From an uncultured Lysobacterales bacterium (GTDB lineage Bacteria > Pseudomonadota > Gammaproteobacteria > Xanthomonadales > SZUA-36): a stretch of 60,470 nt of DNA. Each line of letters begins with the position of its first letter. The first letter of the stretch is position 1. The translations under genes and the position numbers were made by a program. A model generated the notes under the pieces. The model did no database searches. It was not told where the DNA came from and saw only the letters and a list, made by a program, of their open reading frames with translations. Below, in pieces: positions 31,873 through 41,323 of the stretch. Where the stretch lies: positions 1 to 60,470 of the forward strand of contig CALDVW010000044.1 of the NCBI GenBank assembly GCA_937924405.1, read 5' to 3'.

Positions 31873-32136
31873 GTGAGCGACCAGGAGCAACATCAACACT
31901 GTACCAACAAATTCATTGAGCTGGCCAACCAGCTCAAAGCTGAAAACATTGATCCGTCGCTGGTGTCGGGCGCACTGATGACGGCCTCGGGAATCTACGC
32001 CACCTACGTGGCAGCCGGAAACTCGGGCGCACTGGAACCCAGCGGGGTCGATAAAATCGTTACCGTTTACCGGCGGACCCTCGAGCATTATCAGAAGGTA
32101 AAAAAGGCCCAGTTAACCGAGGGTGGCGAAGAATAA
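31873..32136 (+). CDS. DUF3144 family protein
   Basis: An 87-residue soluble protein starting at GTG 31873 after AGGAG (31861-31865). It has a CTNKFIELANQL helix and the pattern LVSGALMTASGIYATYVAAGN, which I recognise as the DUF3144 core. The role is unknown. It lies 86 bases after tamB and 15 bases before the next membrane protein, so it may be the first gene of the metal-transport set that follows, although DUF3144 genes also occur alone. Confidence 0.82.
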   Translation: MSDQEQHQHCTNKFIELANQLKAENIDPSLVSGALMTASGIYATYVAAGNSGALEPSGVDKIVTVYRRTLEHYQKVKKAQLTEGGEE

Positions 32137-32151
32137 GAGCGTTTGCGAGGA

Positions 32152-33867
32152 ATGATCCGAATAATCTCCTGGGCTCTTTTTCTGCTGGCGCCACTGCAGG
32201 TTTCGGCAGATGCCATCGTACGGTCCACCGCAATGTTCGCCGATACCATTGCCGAATATTTTGTTGAAACTGACCATGTTCGGCTTGAATTGGAAATTGG
32301 CGAGGCCGACATTGCCAGCTTTCGTAACCTGCTGCCCAGTTCTATCTACCAGCAACTGGGTTTCGGGGACGAGCCCCTGGAAGACCGCCTGCAACTATTC
32401 ACGTCACGCGACCTCGCTATTTTCAATAATGGTGAGCCGCTGGCGGGATTCGTGCGTGCAATGGGGCCGGCTACACGCCCCTTGCGGGACGAGGTGACCG
32501 GCGAAGAGCTGCCAACCGCCGAGCAAGACGCCACTCTCGTGATTGGGGCCACCCTGGTTTTTCCCTTCGAAGGCAGGCCCGATTCCCTGACCCTGATGGC
32601 GCCGGTCGAGACCGGCCTGGCCAACATAGGTTTTGTGTTGTACCACCAGGGCGTGGCAGTCAATGACTACCGCTACCTGTCCTCGGGCTATACGGTCAAT
32701 CTGGACTGGGAAGACCCCTGGTATTCATCCTTTCCCCAGCGTGCTCTCAAACGCCAGTACGAGTCACCAATGACCGGTTTCATTTATGTGGAACCCTTCG
32801 AAGTCCGCAAGGAAATCATCGTCCGCCCCCATGACATACAGCAATGGGTGGACCTCGGGCTGGAAGGCCAGGATGTCATCCGGGCCGGGCAGCAGGATGA
32901 AATAAAGCGCAGGGTGGTCGAATTCCTGGCGCCGCATTTCAGAGTCAAAATCGACGGTGTAGCGGTGGAGGGCACGCTGGACCGGGTCAATTTCCTGCGG
33001 CGGACACTTAAAAGCAGCACCGTGGTCGATAATCAGGACATCGCGTTGCTGCCGGCTACCCTGGGGGTCATATACGTATTTCCCACCGCGGGCCTGCCGC
33101 AATCGGTGGAAATGGAATGGGACGTTTTCACTGAAAAAATGCAGCGCGTGCCAACCGCCAGTGTCGACCAGGCCGGCCCGCTGCCAGTAATACTGGAGCC
33201 GGACTTCAATATTCTCAGGTGGGACAACTACCTTAAATTTCCAGACATTCCTACCCTGGTGGATATCCAGGCGCCCCCCGGCCCGGTTCAAAAGATTTCG
33301 TCCTGGGGCCGCTGGGTAGCCCTCGGGTTGAGCCTGACTGCCCTGGCCGTGATCATTGGGTCCAGGCGTAAAAATGGAAAGTTTTCGGTTGCCGCCGTCG
33401 TGAGCCTCGTTGTGAGTATTCTTGCCACGCTGTTCCTGGTGAATGAAAACCGCCAGTCAAGCATGAATTCCCAACGGCTCCAGCAACTGGCAGGGAACCT
33501 GCTGCACAATGTTTACCGCGCCTTTGATTACCGGGGCGAGGAAGTGATTTACGACGTCCTTTCGCGCAGCGCTTCGGGCGAACTGCTTACCGACATCTAC
33601 CTTGAAACCCGGCGTGGCCTGGAGTTGGCAAACCAGGGTGGCGCCCGCGTGAAAGTAAAAGACATCGAAGTTCTGGATGCTGTGCTGGTTGAGACCAATG
33701 GAGATTCGCTGACGGTTGACAGCAAGTGGAACGTGTCCGGGTCAGTCGGGCATTGGGGTCACGTGCACCAACGCAGGAACGGATACCACGCCATGCTGGA
33801 AATCAGTGAGATGGGCGGCGTCTGGAAGCTGACGGGACTGGAGATCCTCGGGGAGGAACGGCTTTGA
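32152..33867 (+). CDS. Large exported membrane protein of unknown function, linked to metal ABC genes
   Basis: A 571-residue protein. A cleavable signal (about 1-20, ending VSADA) precedes about 360 residues of periplasmic beta-rich sequence with aromatic and acidic motifs (DYRYLSSGYTVNLDWEDPWY, FIYVEPFEVRKEI). Two closely spaced membrane helices follow (about 379-397 and 406-422: VALGLSLTALAVI, AAVVSLVVSILATLFLV), then a C-terminal domain (about 430-571, with YRAFDYRGEEVIYDVLSRS and SGSVGHWGHVHQRRN). I do not recognise the family. The C-terminal domain contains HWGHVHQR, a possible metal site. The start is uncertain: TTG 32143 is equally possible, because the ATG lies only two bases after GAGG. 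It forms a likely operon with the ABC genes downstream (22-base gap). Confidence 0.8.
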   Translation: MIRIISWALFLLAPLQVSADAIVRSTAMFADTIAEYFVETDHVRLELEIGEADIASFRNLLPSSIYQQLGFGDEPLEDRLQLFTSRDLAIFNNGEPLAGFVRAMGPATRPLRDEVTGEELPTAEQDATLVIGATLVFPFEGRPDSLTLMAPVETGLANIGFVLYHQGVAVNDYRYLSSGYTVNLDWEDPWYSSFPQRALKRQYESPMTGFIYVEPFEVRKEIIVRPHDIQQWVDLGLEGQDVIRAGQQDEIKRRVVEFLAPHFRVKIDGVAVEGTLDRVNFLRRTLKSSTVVDNQDIALLPATLGVIYVFPTAGLPQSVEMEWDVFTEKMQRVPTASVDQAGPLPVILEPDFNILRWDNYLKFPDIPTLVDIQAPPGPVQKISSWGRWVALGLSLTALAVIIGSRRKNGKFSVAAVVSLVVSILATLFLVNENRQSSMNSQRLQQLAGNLLHNVYRAFDYRGEEVIYDVLSRSASGELLTDIYLETRRGLELANQGGARVKVKDIEVLDAVLVETNGDSLTVDSKWNVSGSVGHWGHVHQRRNGYHAMLEISEMGGVWKLTGLEILGEERL

Positions 33868-33889
33868 TCTCCGGCCGGAATAAAAAACC

Positions 33890-34576
33890 GTGATTGAGCT
33901 GAGCAAGATTGAGTTCCGGTACCCTGCAGCCGGAGGGTTCAAGGTCAGTATCCCACAACTTGCCGTGCCAACCGGTGAGTGCATGGCAGTTGTCGGACCG
34001 AGTGGCTCGGGCAAGACCACACTGCTCGGATTGCTTTCCGGGATACTTAAACCCTCCAGCGGGTCTCTTGTGATGGATGGTACGGACCTGGCCAGGCTCG
34101 ATGAGGGGCAACGGAGACGGTTCCGGATCAATAACGTCGGCCAGGTTTTCCAGGCATTTGAACTGCTCAGATACCTGTCCGTTATTGAAAACATCATGTT
34201 GCCCCGCTACATCCATGGATCAGCCACCCAGACCAGCGCAGCTCGTGATCGCGCAGCCCGGTTGCTTACCGACGTCGGGCTGGACGCCAGGGCAAATGCT
34301 TATCCGTCCGAATTGTCACAGGGCGAGCAGCAAAGGGTAGCCGTGTGCCGGGCCATGCTGAATCAGCCTGCCCTGTTATTGGCCGACGAGCCCACAGGAA
34401 ATCTCGATCAGACTAACAAGCAAAACGTGGTTGACCTGTTGCTGGAACAGGCCAAAGCAAACAACAGCACATTGATCATGGTGACCCACGACGATTCGTT
34501 GCTCGGGGCGTTTTCATCGGTACTGGACATCCAGTCGTTGCTCGCCGATGAACCCCGGCGGGAGGATCTCTCGTGA
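33890..34576 (+). CDS. ABC transporter ATPase, LolD/MacB type
   Basis: A 228-residue ATP-binding subunit. It has Walker A GPSGSGKTTLLGLLSG (about 37-52), a Q-loop (VGQVFQAFELL), signature LSQGEQQRVAVCRAML, Walker B LLLADEPTGNLD, and H-loop VTHDD. The signature and D-loop sequence are those of the LolD/FtsE/MacB branch rather than the ZnuC branch. It starts at GTG 33890 with a poor ribosome binding site. Its stop overlaps the GTG of the permease, showing that the two form one transporter. Metal-uptake context is given by the ZnuA-like lipoprotein downstream. Confidence 0.92.
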   Translation: MIELSKIEFRYPAAGGFKVSIPQLAVPTGECMAVVGPSGSGKTTLLGLLSGILKPSSGSLVMDGTDLARLDEGQRRRFRINNVGQVFQAFELLRYLSVIENIMLPRYIHGSATQTSAARDRAARLLTDVGLDARANAYPSELSQGEQQRVAVCRAMLNQPALLLADEPTGNLDQTNKQNVVDLLLEQAKANNSTLIMVTHDDSLLGAFSSVLDIQSLLADEPRREDLS

Positions 34577-35757
34577 TGACCGGTGCATTCTTCCTCGGCT
34601 GGCGTTACCTGGCATTCCATAAACTTAAAACGACGATCCTGGTGGGATCGATCACACTCATGCTTTTTCTGCCCGCCGCTGTCCGCCTGCTGGTCAATGA
34701 CAGTGCAACCGCGCTCACGGCGCGGGCCGACCAGACACCACTGGTTGTCGGCGCCGCAGGCAGCCCTCTGGAGCTGGTTCTGAATGCCCTCTACTTCCAC
34801 GCCGAGCAGCCACCGGCGTTGTCGTACGACAACTTCAGCGAATTACGTGACGCCGGCCTGGCGGTCACCATCCCGATGTACACCCGTTTCCACTCCAGGG
34901 GCTCGCCCATTGTAGGCACGACGCTCGATTACTTTTCTTTCCGGGATCTGAACCTGGCTGCGGGCCGCATGATGGGCATGCTGGGTGAATGCGTGATCGG
35001 GGCCAATGTCGCAGCCAGGCACAAGGCCGGTGTGGGCGACAGCCTGGTCTCTTCGCCTGAAACCGTTTTCGACATTGCCGGCGTCTACCCGCTGAAGATG
35101 AATATAAGCGGCGTACTGGCGCCGACCGGGACACCGGATGACAACGCCATATTCGTCGATTTCAAAACGGCTTGGGTCATCCAGGGTCTGGGACACGGCC
35201 ACCAGGACCTCGAAAGGCCTCAAGCGGCTGCAAGCGTACTCAACCGGAGCGAAGGGATGGTCACCGCAAATGCGGCCCTTCAACAGTACGCTGAAATCAC
35301 ACCGGAAAACGCTGCTGAATTTCATTTCCACGGCGCCACCGGCGATTTTCCATTGAGCAGTGTCGTAGTCGTACCGCCAAACGAAAAAAACGGCGCTTTG
35401 CTTCGAGGAAGATATCAGAACAATGCAAAAGGCATCCAGATCATCGTGCCATCCAGTGTGCTGAACGACCTGCTGGACACTGTTTTCACCGTACAGAACT
35501 ACATCATCCTAGGACTGGCTTTGCTCAGCCTGGCCACCGTGGCCGTCATCACGCTGGTCTTCCTTCTGTCCCAGCAACTTCGTAAAGGTGAGTTTCTCAC
35601 CCTTTCGCGCATTGGCGCCTCGAAAACCTACCTGGCCACGTTGATTGCCTCTGAAATCGGTTTCGTTTTCACCGGCAGTCTGGTCCTGGCCGCCGGATTG
35701 ACTTTCATCACTCGGCAATATGCTCTGCAAATTCTGCAGATATTTCTCGGATTCTGA
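34573..35757 (+). CDS. ABC transporter permease, FtsX/MacB type
   Basis: A 394-residue FtsX-like inner-membrane subunit. One membrane helix lies near the N-terminus (about 18-40), followed by a periplasmic domain of about 270 residues, and two or three C-terminal helices (about 308-334, then 350-394: TLIASEIGFVFTGSLVLAAG). This is the mechanotransmission (type VII) ABC fold, not the multi-helix ZnuB type. The periplasmic domain has His-rich stretches (GLGHGHQDLE and EFHFHGATGD) that may bind metal; this is suggestive only. It starts at GTG 34573 (or ATG 34576) after GGAGG. One base separates its stop from the next ATG. Confidence 0.9.
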   Translation: MMTGAFFLGWRYLAFHKLKTTILVGSITLMLFLPAAVRLLVNDSATALTARADQTPLVVGAAGSPLELVLNALYFHAEQPPALSYDNFSELRDAGLAVTIPMYTRFHSRGSPIVGTTLDYFSFRDLNLAAGRMMGMLGECVIGANVAARHKAGVGDSLVSSPETVFDIAGVYPLKMNISGVLAPTGTPDDNAIFVDFKTAWVIQGLGHGHQDLERPQAAASVLNRSEGMVTANAALQQYAEITPENAAEFHFHGATGDFPLSSVVVVPPNEKNGALLRGRYQNNAKGIQIIVPSSVLNDLLDTVFTVQNYIILGLALLSLATVAVITLVFLLSQQLRKGEFLTLSRIGASKTYLATLIASEIGFVFTGSLVLAAGLTFITRQYALQILQIFLGF

Positions 35758-35758
35758 C

Positions 35759-36709
35759 ATGAGTCGAATACGCAACACGCTATTACTGACTCTCCTTGCG
35801 CTGGCAGCCTGTGGTGAAACAACAGCACCGGGTGACCGGCCCGCTGATTCAGAACACAGGCGACCACTGATCGTCGCCAGTAATTACCCCCTATATTTCT
35901 TTGCCAGCGAAATTGCCGGAGATTCGGCCGATGTCAAACTGCCGGAAATGGCGGGAGACCCGGCCAACTGGAAGCCCGGCAGCGCAGAGATCAGCTTGAT
36001 GCAATCAGCGGACCTGATCATTCTCAACGGCGCCGGCTACGAGCCCTGGCTGGGCTGGGTAACCTTGCCGGAAAGCCACCTGGTGGACAGTTCAGCCGGG
36101 TTCAGCGAAGAGTTTCTTCCGCTGCGTGAAGAAGCTGTACATCAACACGGTCCGCAAGGTGAGCATTCACACCAGGGCGTGGCTTTTACCACCTGGCTCG
36201 ACCCCAGTCTCGCTGCAAAACAGGCCATGGCCATCGAGCAGGCTATCAGCAGGCTGGTTCCTGAAAATGCAGGACAGCATCGTGATCGGCTCGCCGCCCT
36301 GAGTGCCCGGCTGGAAACGCTGGACCAGGCATTCCGCGAAACGTTCGACCGCCTGGGTGACCAGCCCGTCCTTTTTTCACACCCGGTATACCAATACCTC
36401 GAGTCTCGCTATAGTCTGAACGGAGTGAGTGTGCACTGGGAGCCCGGTGAAGCCCCGGGGACCCGTGCAATGCTTGCCCTGAGTGAGATCCTGCGAAGCC
36501 ACCCGGCACGGCTCATGCTGTGGGAAGAAGAGCCACTCGAAACGACAAGCGTGGAACTGCGCAAGCTCGGCGTGCAGTCTTTACCGTTTCACACGGCAGC
36601 GAACCGTCCGGACGATGGTGACTTTTTCGATGTGATGGAAGTCAACGTCGCCAGTTTGCTTTTGAATTGTTGTGGTACGACAATCGGTCCTCAGCAAGAA
36701 CCGGAATAA
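35759..36709 (+). CDS. ZnuA-like metal-binding lipoprotein (cluster A-I substrate-binding protein)
   Basis: A 316-residue lipoprotein. The signal ends in a lipobox, LAACGE (Cys about 19). The rest follows the ZnuA/AdcA/TroA pattern: VASNYPLYFFASEIAGD, SLMQSADLIILNGAGYEPWL, a His-rich loop (HQHGPQGEHSHQ, about 135-146), TTWLDPSLAAKQA, VLFSHPVYQYLESRYSLN and LWEEEP. Typical ligands are therefore mostly present. However, the early His of ZnuA (usually in a DHxYxPTP or HSYEPTP context) seems replaced by NWKPGS. It starts at ATG 35759, next to the permease stop, and is translationally coupled. It likely captures Zn or Mn on the periplasmic side and feeds the FtsX-type transporter, an unusual pairing. 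Confidence 0.88.
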   Translation: MSRIRNTLLLTLLALAACGETTAPGDRPADSEHRRPLIVASNYPLYFFASEIAGDSADVKLPEMAGDPANWKPGSAEISLMQSADLIILNGAGYEPWLGWVTLPESHLVDSSAGFSEEFLPLREEAVHQHGPQGEHSHQGVAFTTWLDPSLAAKQAMAIEQAISRLVPENAGQHRDRLAALSARLETLDQAFRETFDRLGDQPVLFSHPVYQYLESRYSLNGVSVHWEPGEAPGTRAMLALSEILRSHPARLMLWEEEPLETTSVELRKLGVQSLPFHTAANRPDDGDFFDVMEVNVASLLLNCCGTTIGPQQEPE

Positions 36710-39262: not shown

Positions 39263-41323
39263 TCAGAATCCATAATGCAGCGAAAGCCCGGCGTAGATAT
39301 TACGTTCCGGAGCCGGTTCGTAGTAACGGCCGAAGGAAGCATTCAGCCGGATATTGCCAAAATACTCTTCGTCGAACAGGTTATTGATACCCAAAAATGG
39401 CTCAAGTAGCCAGTCCCCGCTGGCCCAGCGATATCCTGAGCGCAGGTTTGACACCAGGTAGGCATCGGTTTCCACCTCATTGGCATTATCGGCATAGAAT
39501 CGACCGACATACAGCAGGTCCCAGGCCGCGTAGAAACCGGAAGTATGCGACCAGGTCAGGTCCAGGTTGAACAGGTGTTCCGGCACGCCTGGAATCCGGT
39601 TCCCGTCATAAACTTCATCGTTCACCCCCCGGAACTCATCGAATGTGAAGTCGGACCAGGTGTAAGTGGCCGACCCCATCAATCCGGGGGCGAGTTCCAT
39701 CGACACCGCTGTTTCCAGTCCGTCATGTGTCGAACTGCCTGCGTTCTGAAAAAAAGACTGGCCTGAACCTTCCAGTTCGAAAGGCACGATTTCATCTTTC
39801 ACATCGATATGGAATAAAGCCAGTTCATAGCGCAGCCGTCCGGTCACCAGGCCCTTGACGCCGATTTCGTAATTGGTGGCGGTCTGGGATTCAAGGTCCT
39901 GGTTGAATCCGGTGGGAGCCTCGGGGTTGGCCAGTTCCGTCGTCGCGGGTGGATCGAAAGAGCTGGAAACATTGCCATAGAGGTTCACCGCGTCACGAAC
40001 CGCCCAGTTGATGCCGGCCATCGGGTTGAATTCGGTGAAACTCCGCTGGCCGGAACCTCCCTCACCGGTACGGTCCGTTACCTCGTAATCCACATCATCA
40101 AAACGCCCGCCCAGGGTCAGGGACGCGCTGCCGGTGAGTTCGAACACGTCCTGAAGATAGATTCCCGTGGTGGTCACATCTTCATCCTGGTTGGTGGTCA
40201 GGTCGCCCAATGTGCCCTGATTATTGGCAAATCTCTTCCGATGATCTCGTTGGGCATCGTAATCGAAACCCATGATCAGCCGGTTACCATGCGAACCGAT
40301 TTCGGAATCCCAGCTGTAACTTCCGCCCAGTCCGCTGAACCTGCGGCTCAGGTCTACAGCACCCCCCTGGCCATTGCTGTTGATATCAAAAGGCAGCAGG
40401 TTGTTGAACTGGCGGTGAACATAATAATTGCGCAACTTCAGTTCCTGGCTGGCACCAATTTGCTTACGAAAGGCGAGGCCCAACGACTGCTGGTCCAGTG
40501 CCTCGCCCGCATTGTACAAGAGGTTTCTGGGCGCCGCCTGGCGGCGATCTTCGGCGACTTCCCGCGCATTCAATCCGCCGGGATCATCTGCGGTGGGTGA
40601 GTCTACTGCGTTCACCACTACGGTCAGACTGGCTGTCTCGTTGAAGTCATAACGGAATTTGCTGTTGAGCAAACTGCTTTCATAGCGGGCGTGATCCCGA
40701 TAGCCATCCAGTTCGGTCGATGAAACGTTGGCCAGCCAGTTGAGTTTGCCCGATTGTCCGCCGGCTTTGAACTGGGCTTGCCGGTAATCGTAGGATCCCA
40801 GATTTACCCGCCCGGAAATAAAGGGCGTATCCGGCCCGTCTTCAGTCCGGATATTGATCACCCCACCGGAGGCCGAGCCGTAGACCGCAGAGAACGGCCC
40901 ACGGATGACTTCGACCTGTTCGGCGGAACCCAGGTCGATTGCGTCAACGCTACCCTGACCGTCCGGTAAAGTAAGAGGAATGTCATCGGCAAAAATCCGG
41001 ATTCCGCGAATGCCAAAATTAGCGCGCGCCCCGAAACCCCTGATGGCAATCCGCAAATCCTGGGCAAAGTTATATCGGTTTTGAAAAAACAGGCCCGGAA
41101 CGGTTGCAAGCGCTTCATCGAGACCCAATTGCTGGCGTGCGCGTTGAATTTCCTCCCTGCCGACACTGCCCACCGCGAAGGGTAAACTCACCATATCGGT
41201 GGGAATACGGGTAGCCGTGACGATAACTTCCTCCAGAACACCCCCGCCACTGCTGTCGGCAGTTGCGGGAGAAGAGAAATTCGCCAGCAGGAATAGTAAA
41301 CCGGTATTTTTCAGGTATCGCAA
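39263..41323 (-). CDS. TonB-dependent outer-membrane receptor
   Basis: A 686-residue receptor that imports a large or scarce ligand across the outer membrane with TonB energy. It has a signal peptide (about 1-22, PATA/D), a TonB box near EEVIVTATR, a plug domain (about 35-150: FQNRYNFAQDLRIAIRGFG, split by the usual turn, VEVIRGPFSAVYGSASGGVINI), and a 22-strand barrel ending in an aromatic C-terminus (LSLHYGF). The substrate is unknown. By length and barrel pattern it is closest to iron-siderophore or general Cir/FecA-like receptors, but that is a guess. It starts at TTG 41323, overlapping the preceding gene's stop by 13 bases; moaC follows. Confidence 0.92.
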   Translation of the reverse strand: MRYLKNTGLLFLLANFSSPATADSSGGGVLEEVIVTATRIPTDMVSLPFAVGSVGREEIQRARQQLGLDEALATVPGLFFQNRYNFAQDLRIAIRGFGARANFGIRGIRIFADDIPLTLPDGQGSVDAIDLGSAEQVEVIRGPFSAVYGSASGGVINIRTEDGPDTPFISGRVNLGSYDYRQAQFKAGGQSGKLNWLANVSSTELDGYRDHARYESSLLNSKFRYDFNETASLTVVVNAVDSPTADDPGGLNAREVAEDRRQAAPRNLLYNAGEALDQQSLGLAFRKQIGASQELKLRNYYVHRQFNNLLPFDINSNGQGGAVDLSRRFSGLGGSYSWDSEIGSHGNRLIMGFDYDAQRDHRKRFANNQGTLGDLTTNQDEDVTTTGIYLQDVFELTGSASLTLGGRFDDVDYEVTDRTGEGGSGQRSFTEFNPMAGINWAVRDAVNLYGNVSSSFDPPATTELANPEAPTGFNQDLESQTATNYEIGVKGLVTGRLRYELALFHIDVKDEIVPFELEGSGQSFFQNAGSSTHDGLETAVSMELAPGLMGSATYTWSDFTFDEFRGVNDEVYDGNRIPGVPEHLFNLDLTWSHTSGFYAAWDLLYVGRFYADNANEVETDAYLVSNLRSGYRWASGDWLLEPFLGINNLFDEEYFGNIRLNASFGRYYEPAPERNIYAGLSLHYGF

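Follow-up and report, generated by a model that had tools for sequence, protein, structure and literature searches.

The window analysed here, by which we mean the whole stretch of 60,470 nucleotides, contains four genes arranged head to tail that encode an envelope protein of 571 amino acids, an ABC ATPase, an FtsX/MacB-type permease and a lipoprotein with a ZnuA fold (Table 1). They follow one another with 22 bp, a 4-bp overlap and 1 bp between them, and both the genes and the spacings given in a preliminary description of this DNA were confirmed at their coordinates. That description let the system begin at 31873, with the gene of a small DUF3144 protein. This gene had no counterpart in any relative locus compared, and the cassette is therefore taken as 32152-36709; the DUF3144 gene was rejected as a subunit and is probably a mere neighbour. 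The profile searches that had been proposed matched ABC_tran, MacB_PCD and the ZnuA family, left FtsX below its cut-off and assigned the 571-aa protein to no family. Pfam also placed a TamB gene upstream of the cassette and moaA downstream, with no MacA adaptor or TolC-type gene adjoining it in the window. About 2.5 kb past the cassette, after the moa genes, a gene on the reverse strand (39263-41323) encodes a TonB-dependent receptor by the look of its sequence.

Table 1. Features of the cassette and of the gene preceding it (positions in the window).
Feature	Position	Strand	Basis or remark
DUF3144 small protein, GTG start	31873-32136		DUF3144 2.4e-7; ends 15 bp 5' of cassette
571-aa envelope protein gene	32152..33867	+	no Pfam family
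GHWGHVH motif, NTF2-like domain of 571-aa protein	33748..33768	+	alignment
ABC ATPase gene, LolD/FtsE/YbbA type	33890..34576	+	ABC_tran 2.6e-31 (Pfam)
FtsX/MacB-type permease gene	34573..35757	+	MacB_PCD 3e-9 (Pfam)
GHGH motif, permease periplasmic domain	35191..35202	+	H208, H210 invariant, 23 sequences
FHFHG motif, permease periplasmic domain	35320..35334	+	H251, H253 invariant, 23 sequences
ZnuA-fold lipoprotein gene, lipobox LAAC	35759..36709	+	PF01297 2.6e-39 (Pfam)
His loop HxHG...HSH (H128, H130, H138) of lipoprotein	36140..36172	+	invariant, 19 sequences

The ATPase has all its catalytic motifs intact (Walker A, signature, Walker B and H-loop). Its nearest families in NCBIfam were LolD, FtsE and YbbA, all of which scored under their equivalog cut-offs (LolD, 193.8 against 307.75 bits; FtsE, 177.7 against 264.85 bits). 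In the permease, the Pfam match to FtsX covered only positions 4-73 of 120, in accord with a missing fourth transmembrane helix. Indeed, hydropathy gave three helices, at residues 22-40, 311-329 and 362-380, and the same arrangement TM1-TM2-TM3 without TM4 was found in all 23 permease relatives, with only 12-24 residues after TM3. Zrg and other FtsX proteins mostly displayed TM4 in the hydropathy comparison. The two histidine motifs of the periplasmic domain also set this permease apart, as neither GHGH nor FHFHG was present in the 12 Zrg permeases compared. Zrg permeases were the nearest profile matches (1e-20 to 1e-30), other FtsX proteins giving 1e-5 or nothing, and a maximum-likelihood tree separated a cassette clade (support 97/100) from the Zrg clade (100/99).

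The fold of the lipoprotein matched AdcA, YcdH and ZnuA, which are binding proteins of cluster A-I. To characterize its ligands, 19 cassette lipoproteins were compared with solved structures and with canonical ZnuAs encoded in the genomes that carry the cassette. The first ligand histidine was gone in 19/19 lipoproteins, where PHxxxP had become PA or PV, and so was the second (19/19), DPHxW having become TTW-like. The acidic ligand position was unconserved and the third histidine (H208) was retained. The three histidines of the loop listed in Table 1 were invariant in the same alignment, as were E228 and E256; in the structure model this loop is a flexible, low-confidence region. The loss of two canonical histidines together with the gain of invariant loop histidines argues for a rebuilt site, and, by these alignments, the lipoprotein is a metal-type scaffold carrying such a predicted site and not a plain ZnuA. 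The ZnuA-like zinc site implied by the preliminary description lacks two of its three canonical histidines, and a deduction of zinc from membership in the ZnuA family was rejected after the ligand comparison. By inspection, the signal sequence ended in a cysteine in 18 of 20 lipoproteins; the strict lipobox pattern fitted 10.

The 571-aa protein belongs to no Pfam family, and the same holds for its aligned relatives, apart from one marginal match. Its AlphaFold2 model was confident (pLDDT 87.3, pTM 0.74) and shows a signal peptide, two domain copies (about residues 20-203 and 204-368), a transmembrane hairpin (about 378-436) and an NTF2-like domain (437-571). In searches with Foldseek/VIA, residues 201-357 matched ZrgA/PA4063 (Z 8.4-9.6 over 124-136 residues) and residues 188-372 the anglerase domain of Ang-1 (9gce; Z 9.8, rmsd 6.2 over 153 residues), both matches being limited by an rmsd of 4.3-6.2 Å and an identity of about 10-14%. 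Residues 20-203 resemble a second copy of this middle domain (hhalign probability 93%), and residues 437-571 matched the NTF2-like domains of ARC6, VirB8 and Tim44 with Z of about 9-12 (Foldseek/VIA). The protein is predicted from these models to hold tandem domains of the ZrgA/anglerase fold followed by an NTF2-like domain. Sequence profiles gave no link to ZrgA or to the HupE-type neighbour seen in one relative locus, so that kinship at this level was rejected; a shared fold with ZrgA is therefore claimed, not family membership. Within the NTF2-like domain, G533, H534, W535, G536, H537 and H539 were invariant in 32 relatives from several phyla. The anglerase (Ang-1) HupE/UreJ-2 proteins (PMC12537917) have a membrane-tethered periplasmic metal-binding domain, whose fold the 571-aa protein may share. 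In contrast to Ang-1, the 571-aa protein has two predicted copies of this domain, no N-terminal His brace (its mature N terminus, judged by eye, begins DAIV) and no HupE permease domain (Pfam), and it adds the NTF2-like domain with GHWGHxH.

With the 571-aa protein as query, a scan across bacterial and archaeal genomes yielded 37 loci. They belong to Gammaproteobacteria (including Photobacterium), Myxococcota, Gemmatimonadota, Nitrospirota, Planctomycetota, Latescibacterota and one Sulfurovum. In most of them the 571-aa gene is followed by the ATPase, permease and ZnuA-like genes in the same order, and in several it lies beside this trio in the opposite orientation. Among the checked genomes whose 571-aa gene seemed to stand by itself, five had the permease at another site (G286, G288, G296, G297 and G304, incomplete in G288 and G296); it was not found in G287, and G303 had just a Zrg-type permease. 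In the reverse test, with the permease in 274 genomes of the host's class, matches were bimodal: they were full-length in 6 genomes, while the remaining ones were weak and mostly confined to the N-terminal half. The 571-aa protein was present in 4 of these 6 genomes. Of the other two, one is 62% complete and one has a contig that starts 333 bp before the ATPase frame. Judged from these sequence matches, the cassette is sparse yet widespread, and its recurrence in many loci makes the gene grouping more than chance. The conserved neighbourhood that the preliminary description had looked to was thus found in loci of many phyla, all four genes being grouped in Pseudomonadota, Myxococcota, Gemmatimonadota, Nitrospirota and others, and its counter-case, a lipoprotein unlinked from the ABC genes, was not encountered, since cassette-type lipoproteins adjoined the permease wherever both were examined. 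Mirror-tree correlations of 0.39-0.83 were given no weight, as shared ancestry influences them too strongly. No relatives of the cassette were confirmed in viral contigs, and the literature searched held no description of it. One genome (G274, that of locus L002) encodes both the permease and the cassette-type lipoprotein twice, at loci L142 and L152 of different contigs. Another, a single Latescibacterota chromosome (L015), had a 571-aa relative, and no cassette permease was found in it.

Variants and neighbours of the cassette bear on the parts of the 571-aa protein and on its possible clients. A plasmid of Paracoccus liaowanqingii (L161:7115-12215) encodes the ATPase, the permease and the binding protein together with only a 166-aa NTF2-like part of the 571-aa protein. 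Two genes of the DUF4198 family, which has a nickel-binding member (PMC12537917), flank them, and type II secretion genes lie next to them. The absence of the N-terminal part, with DUF4198 genes in its stead, suggests that this part is an exchangeable metal-binding module. DUF4198 and HupE/UreJ-2 genes are further metal-linked neighbours of the cassette. A divergent 571-aa relative (L032:7935-11020) has a HupE/UreJ-2 permease gene directly after it and lacks the trio; the only permease found in that genome was Zrg-type. On a plasmid of Methylomagnum ishizawai (L160:4888-15350), the cassette lies between a CopC-family gene and genes for a TonB receptor and NikR. Of 26 carrier genomes, 9 had genes for secreted PNGM-1-like proteins of the metallo-beta-lactamase (MBL) fold close to the cassette, against about 0.4 expected by a rough hand tally, and one such gene also lies beside an isolated 571-aa relative on a Rhodobacteraceae plasmid. 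Such genes, often paired, stood by the cassette or by an isolated 571-aa relative in L008, L014, L019, L022, L027, L028, L034, L005, L029, L087, L088 and L159. The idea that one conserved regulator or adaptor gene accompanies the cassette was rejected: the flanks vary and only the PNGM-1-like genes recur. Both zinc-linked and nickel-linked neighbours occur, so that they agree on metals and differ on which.

The host genome, whose assembly is 90% complete, was searched family by family. It contained no ABC-3 permease (PF00950), no second ZnuA and no ZrgA (PF10986), and hence no ZnuB-type permease elsewhere, which the preliminary description had named as a possible partner of the lipoprotein. 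One ZIP-family protein was present. A single Fur-family protein was seen, which looks like Fur itself, and no Zur. A consensus scan gave no Zur-like box at the relative loci scanned or in the window, and candidate Zur or Fur boxes upstream of 31873 and 32152 were rejected, as nothing scored above shuffles. The regulation by zinc through a Zur motif upstream of 31873 that had been put forward was not borne out by these searches. Ordinary ZnuA/ZnuB systems are also present in many other carriers, and the cassette is therefore not simply their replacement; its reading as a simple ZnuABC substitute was rejected on this ground. Two ZrgA loci in genomes of the host's class (L074 and L085) also carry a ZnuA-family gene.

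Comparison with known systems places the cassette most likely as a sister system to Zrg among MacB/FtsX-type metal systems, and not as a member of Zrg or ZnuABC. Zrg (zrgABCDE of V. cholerae, PA4063-PA4066 of P. aeruginosa) likewise has a separate ATPase and a MacB/FtsX-type permease with a periplasmic metal-binding protein encoded alongside, and the ZrgA fold recurs in the second domain of the 571-aa protein; the comparison with Zrg made in the preliminary description was apt in this respect and in that of the nearest permeases. Unlike Zrg, the cassette has a ZnuA-fold lipoprotein in place of a ZrgA (PF10986) gene and a permease without TM4, with GHGH and FHFHG, in its own clade. As to the Zur control expected of a Zrg system, the consensus scan saw no Zur box at the cassette loci covered. 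With the cluster A-I importers ZnuABC and AdcABC it shares the PF01297 fold of the lipoprotein, but neither an ABC-3 permease nor a ZnuC-type ATPase, and the lipoprotein has the new His loop and lacks their conserved His 1, His 2 and acidic ligand. The ATPase and permease superfamily, with a large periplasmic domain after TM1, is that of MacAB-TolC and LolCDE/FtsEX. The cassette differs from these in its split ATPase and permease genes with no adjoining MacA adaptor, in an ATPase under the LolD and FtsE equivalog cut-offs and in a permease of three transmembrane helices.

The FtsX/MacB superfamily normally acts by mechanotransmission. We propose, with a probability of roughly 55%, that the four genes encode an ATP-driven machine for metal handling in the envelope, which would work like Zrg/PA4063-66 and hand metal over within the envelope. 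Such a hand-over is our first choice among the readings because TM4 is missing, a chain of histidines runs through three subunits and genes for secreted metallo-hydrolases lie nearby. The linkage of the genes across phyla, the altered ligands of the lipoprotein, the closeness of the Zrg permeases, the predicted ZrgA/anglerase fold of the partner and the host genome without ABC-3 permease or second ZnuA also speak for it. In the proposed mechanism, an ABC transporter of the MacB/FtsX superfamily in the inner membrane would exchange metal ions with partner proteins through its periplasmic part. The lipoprotein would collect a transition metal (Zn, Ni, Co or Cu are candidates), and ATP hydrolysis would move the periplasmic domain of the permease by mechanotransmission. 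GHGH/FHFHG would then relay the metal to the domain of the 571-aa protein that bears GHWGHxH. Its final recipient would be a client protein that is secreted or resides in the periplasm, for example one of the PNGM-1-like metallo-hydrolases, and it would not take the route of a ZnuB-like channel. Against the hand-over count the Paracoccus variant, whose lipoprotein has a changed H208 and whose GHWGH motif is altered in part, the low model confidence around the loop histidines, the lack of a Zur box in the scans, the ordinary ZnuA/ZnuB systems of many carriers and the loose fold match to ZrgA and Ang-1. What the preliminary description had seen as a distinct system, in which a ZnuA-fold protein is joined by a new membrane protein and an ABC transporter of FtsX/MacB type, stands. 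The histidine motifs from which it argued for metal handling by several subunits proved invariant. Its term importer fits poorly with a permease that lacks TM4 in a superfamily of mechanotransmission machines. A bolder form of the hand-over, in which the hairpin of the 571-aa protein replaces TM4 and mechanical motion loads metal from the lipoprotein onto secreted metalloenzymes such as the PNGM-1-like hydrolases, would make this the first ATP-driven periplasmic metallation machine; we regard it as speculative and distinctly doubtful.

The role of FtsX/MacB-type ABC machines in metal homeostasis is disputed. The Zrg system of V. cholerae is interpreted as importing zinc (PMC9820375), and its counterpart in P. 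aeruginosa as exporting pyochelin (PMC11481552). With the cassette, the question of import, export or metal hand-over can be put to a second and independent case, and it is a place to study how secreted enzymes acquire metal in the periplasm. It combines an FtsX/MacB-type machine with a ZnuA-fold protein of rebuilt ligands and a partner bearing the ZrgA fold, with invariant histidines along the chain. The missing TM4, in turn, bears on the minimal membrane part of a mechanotransmission ABC permease.

Classical import is the main rival of the hand-over. Here the FtsX-type permease would receive metal from the lipoprotein and carry it into the cytoplasm, a model also put forward for Zrg in V. 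cholerae, where zrgA is needed for zinc-limited growth when znuA is absent (PMC9820375). The host genome has no ABC-3 permease and PF01297 proteins are otherwise import receptors, both of which favour this rival. However, a channel can hardly be built well on three transmembrane helices without TM4, the canonical ligand set of the lipoprotein is lost, the host has its ZIP-family protein and ZnuB-type permeases also occur in many carriers. Import thus appears possible but, on balance, unlikely. We consider it improbable that the cassette exports a metal, a metal chelate or a metallophore, a role suggested in P. aeruginosa for PA4064-PA4065 with pyochelin. The MacB-type periplasmic domain that Pfam assigns to the permease would fit export, which is also what the study of PA4065 concludes (PMC11481552), but no MacA or TolC-type gene adjoins the cassette in the window, the binding lipoprotein has the fold of an import receptor and the permease lacks TM4 and differs from those of Zrg. 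A ZnuA scaffold put to a non-metal role, for instance in a Lol/Mac-like machine that acts on a lipid, a peptide or a lipoprotein, would suit the absence of two canonical metal ligands, the frequent action of NTF2-like domains and FtsX machines on proteins or lipids and the FadL-type outer-membrane proteins that adjoin the cassette in two loci, yet it is made highly improbable by new invariant histidines in three different subunits and by metal-linked neighbours that recur from locus to locus.
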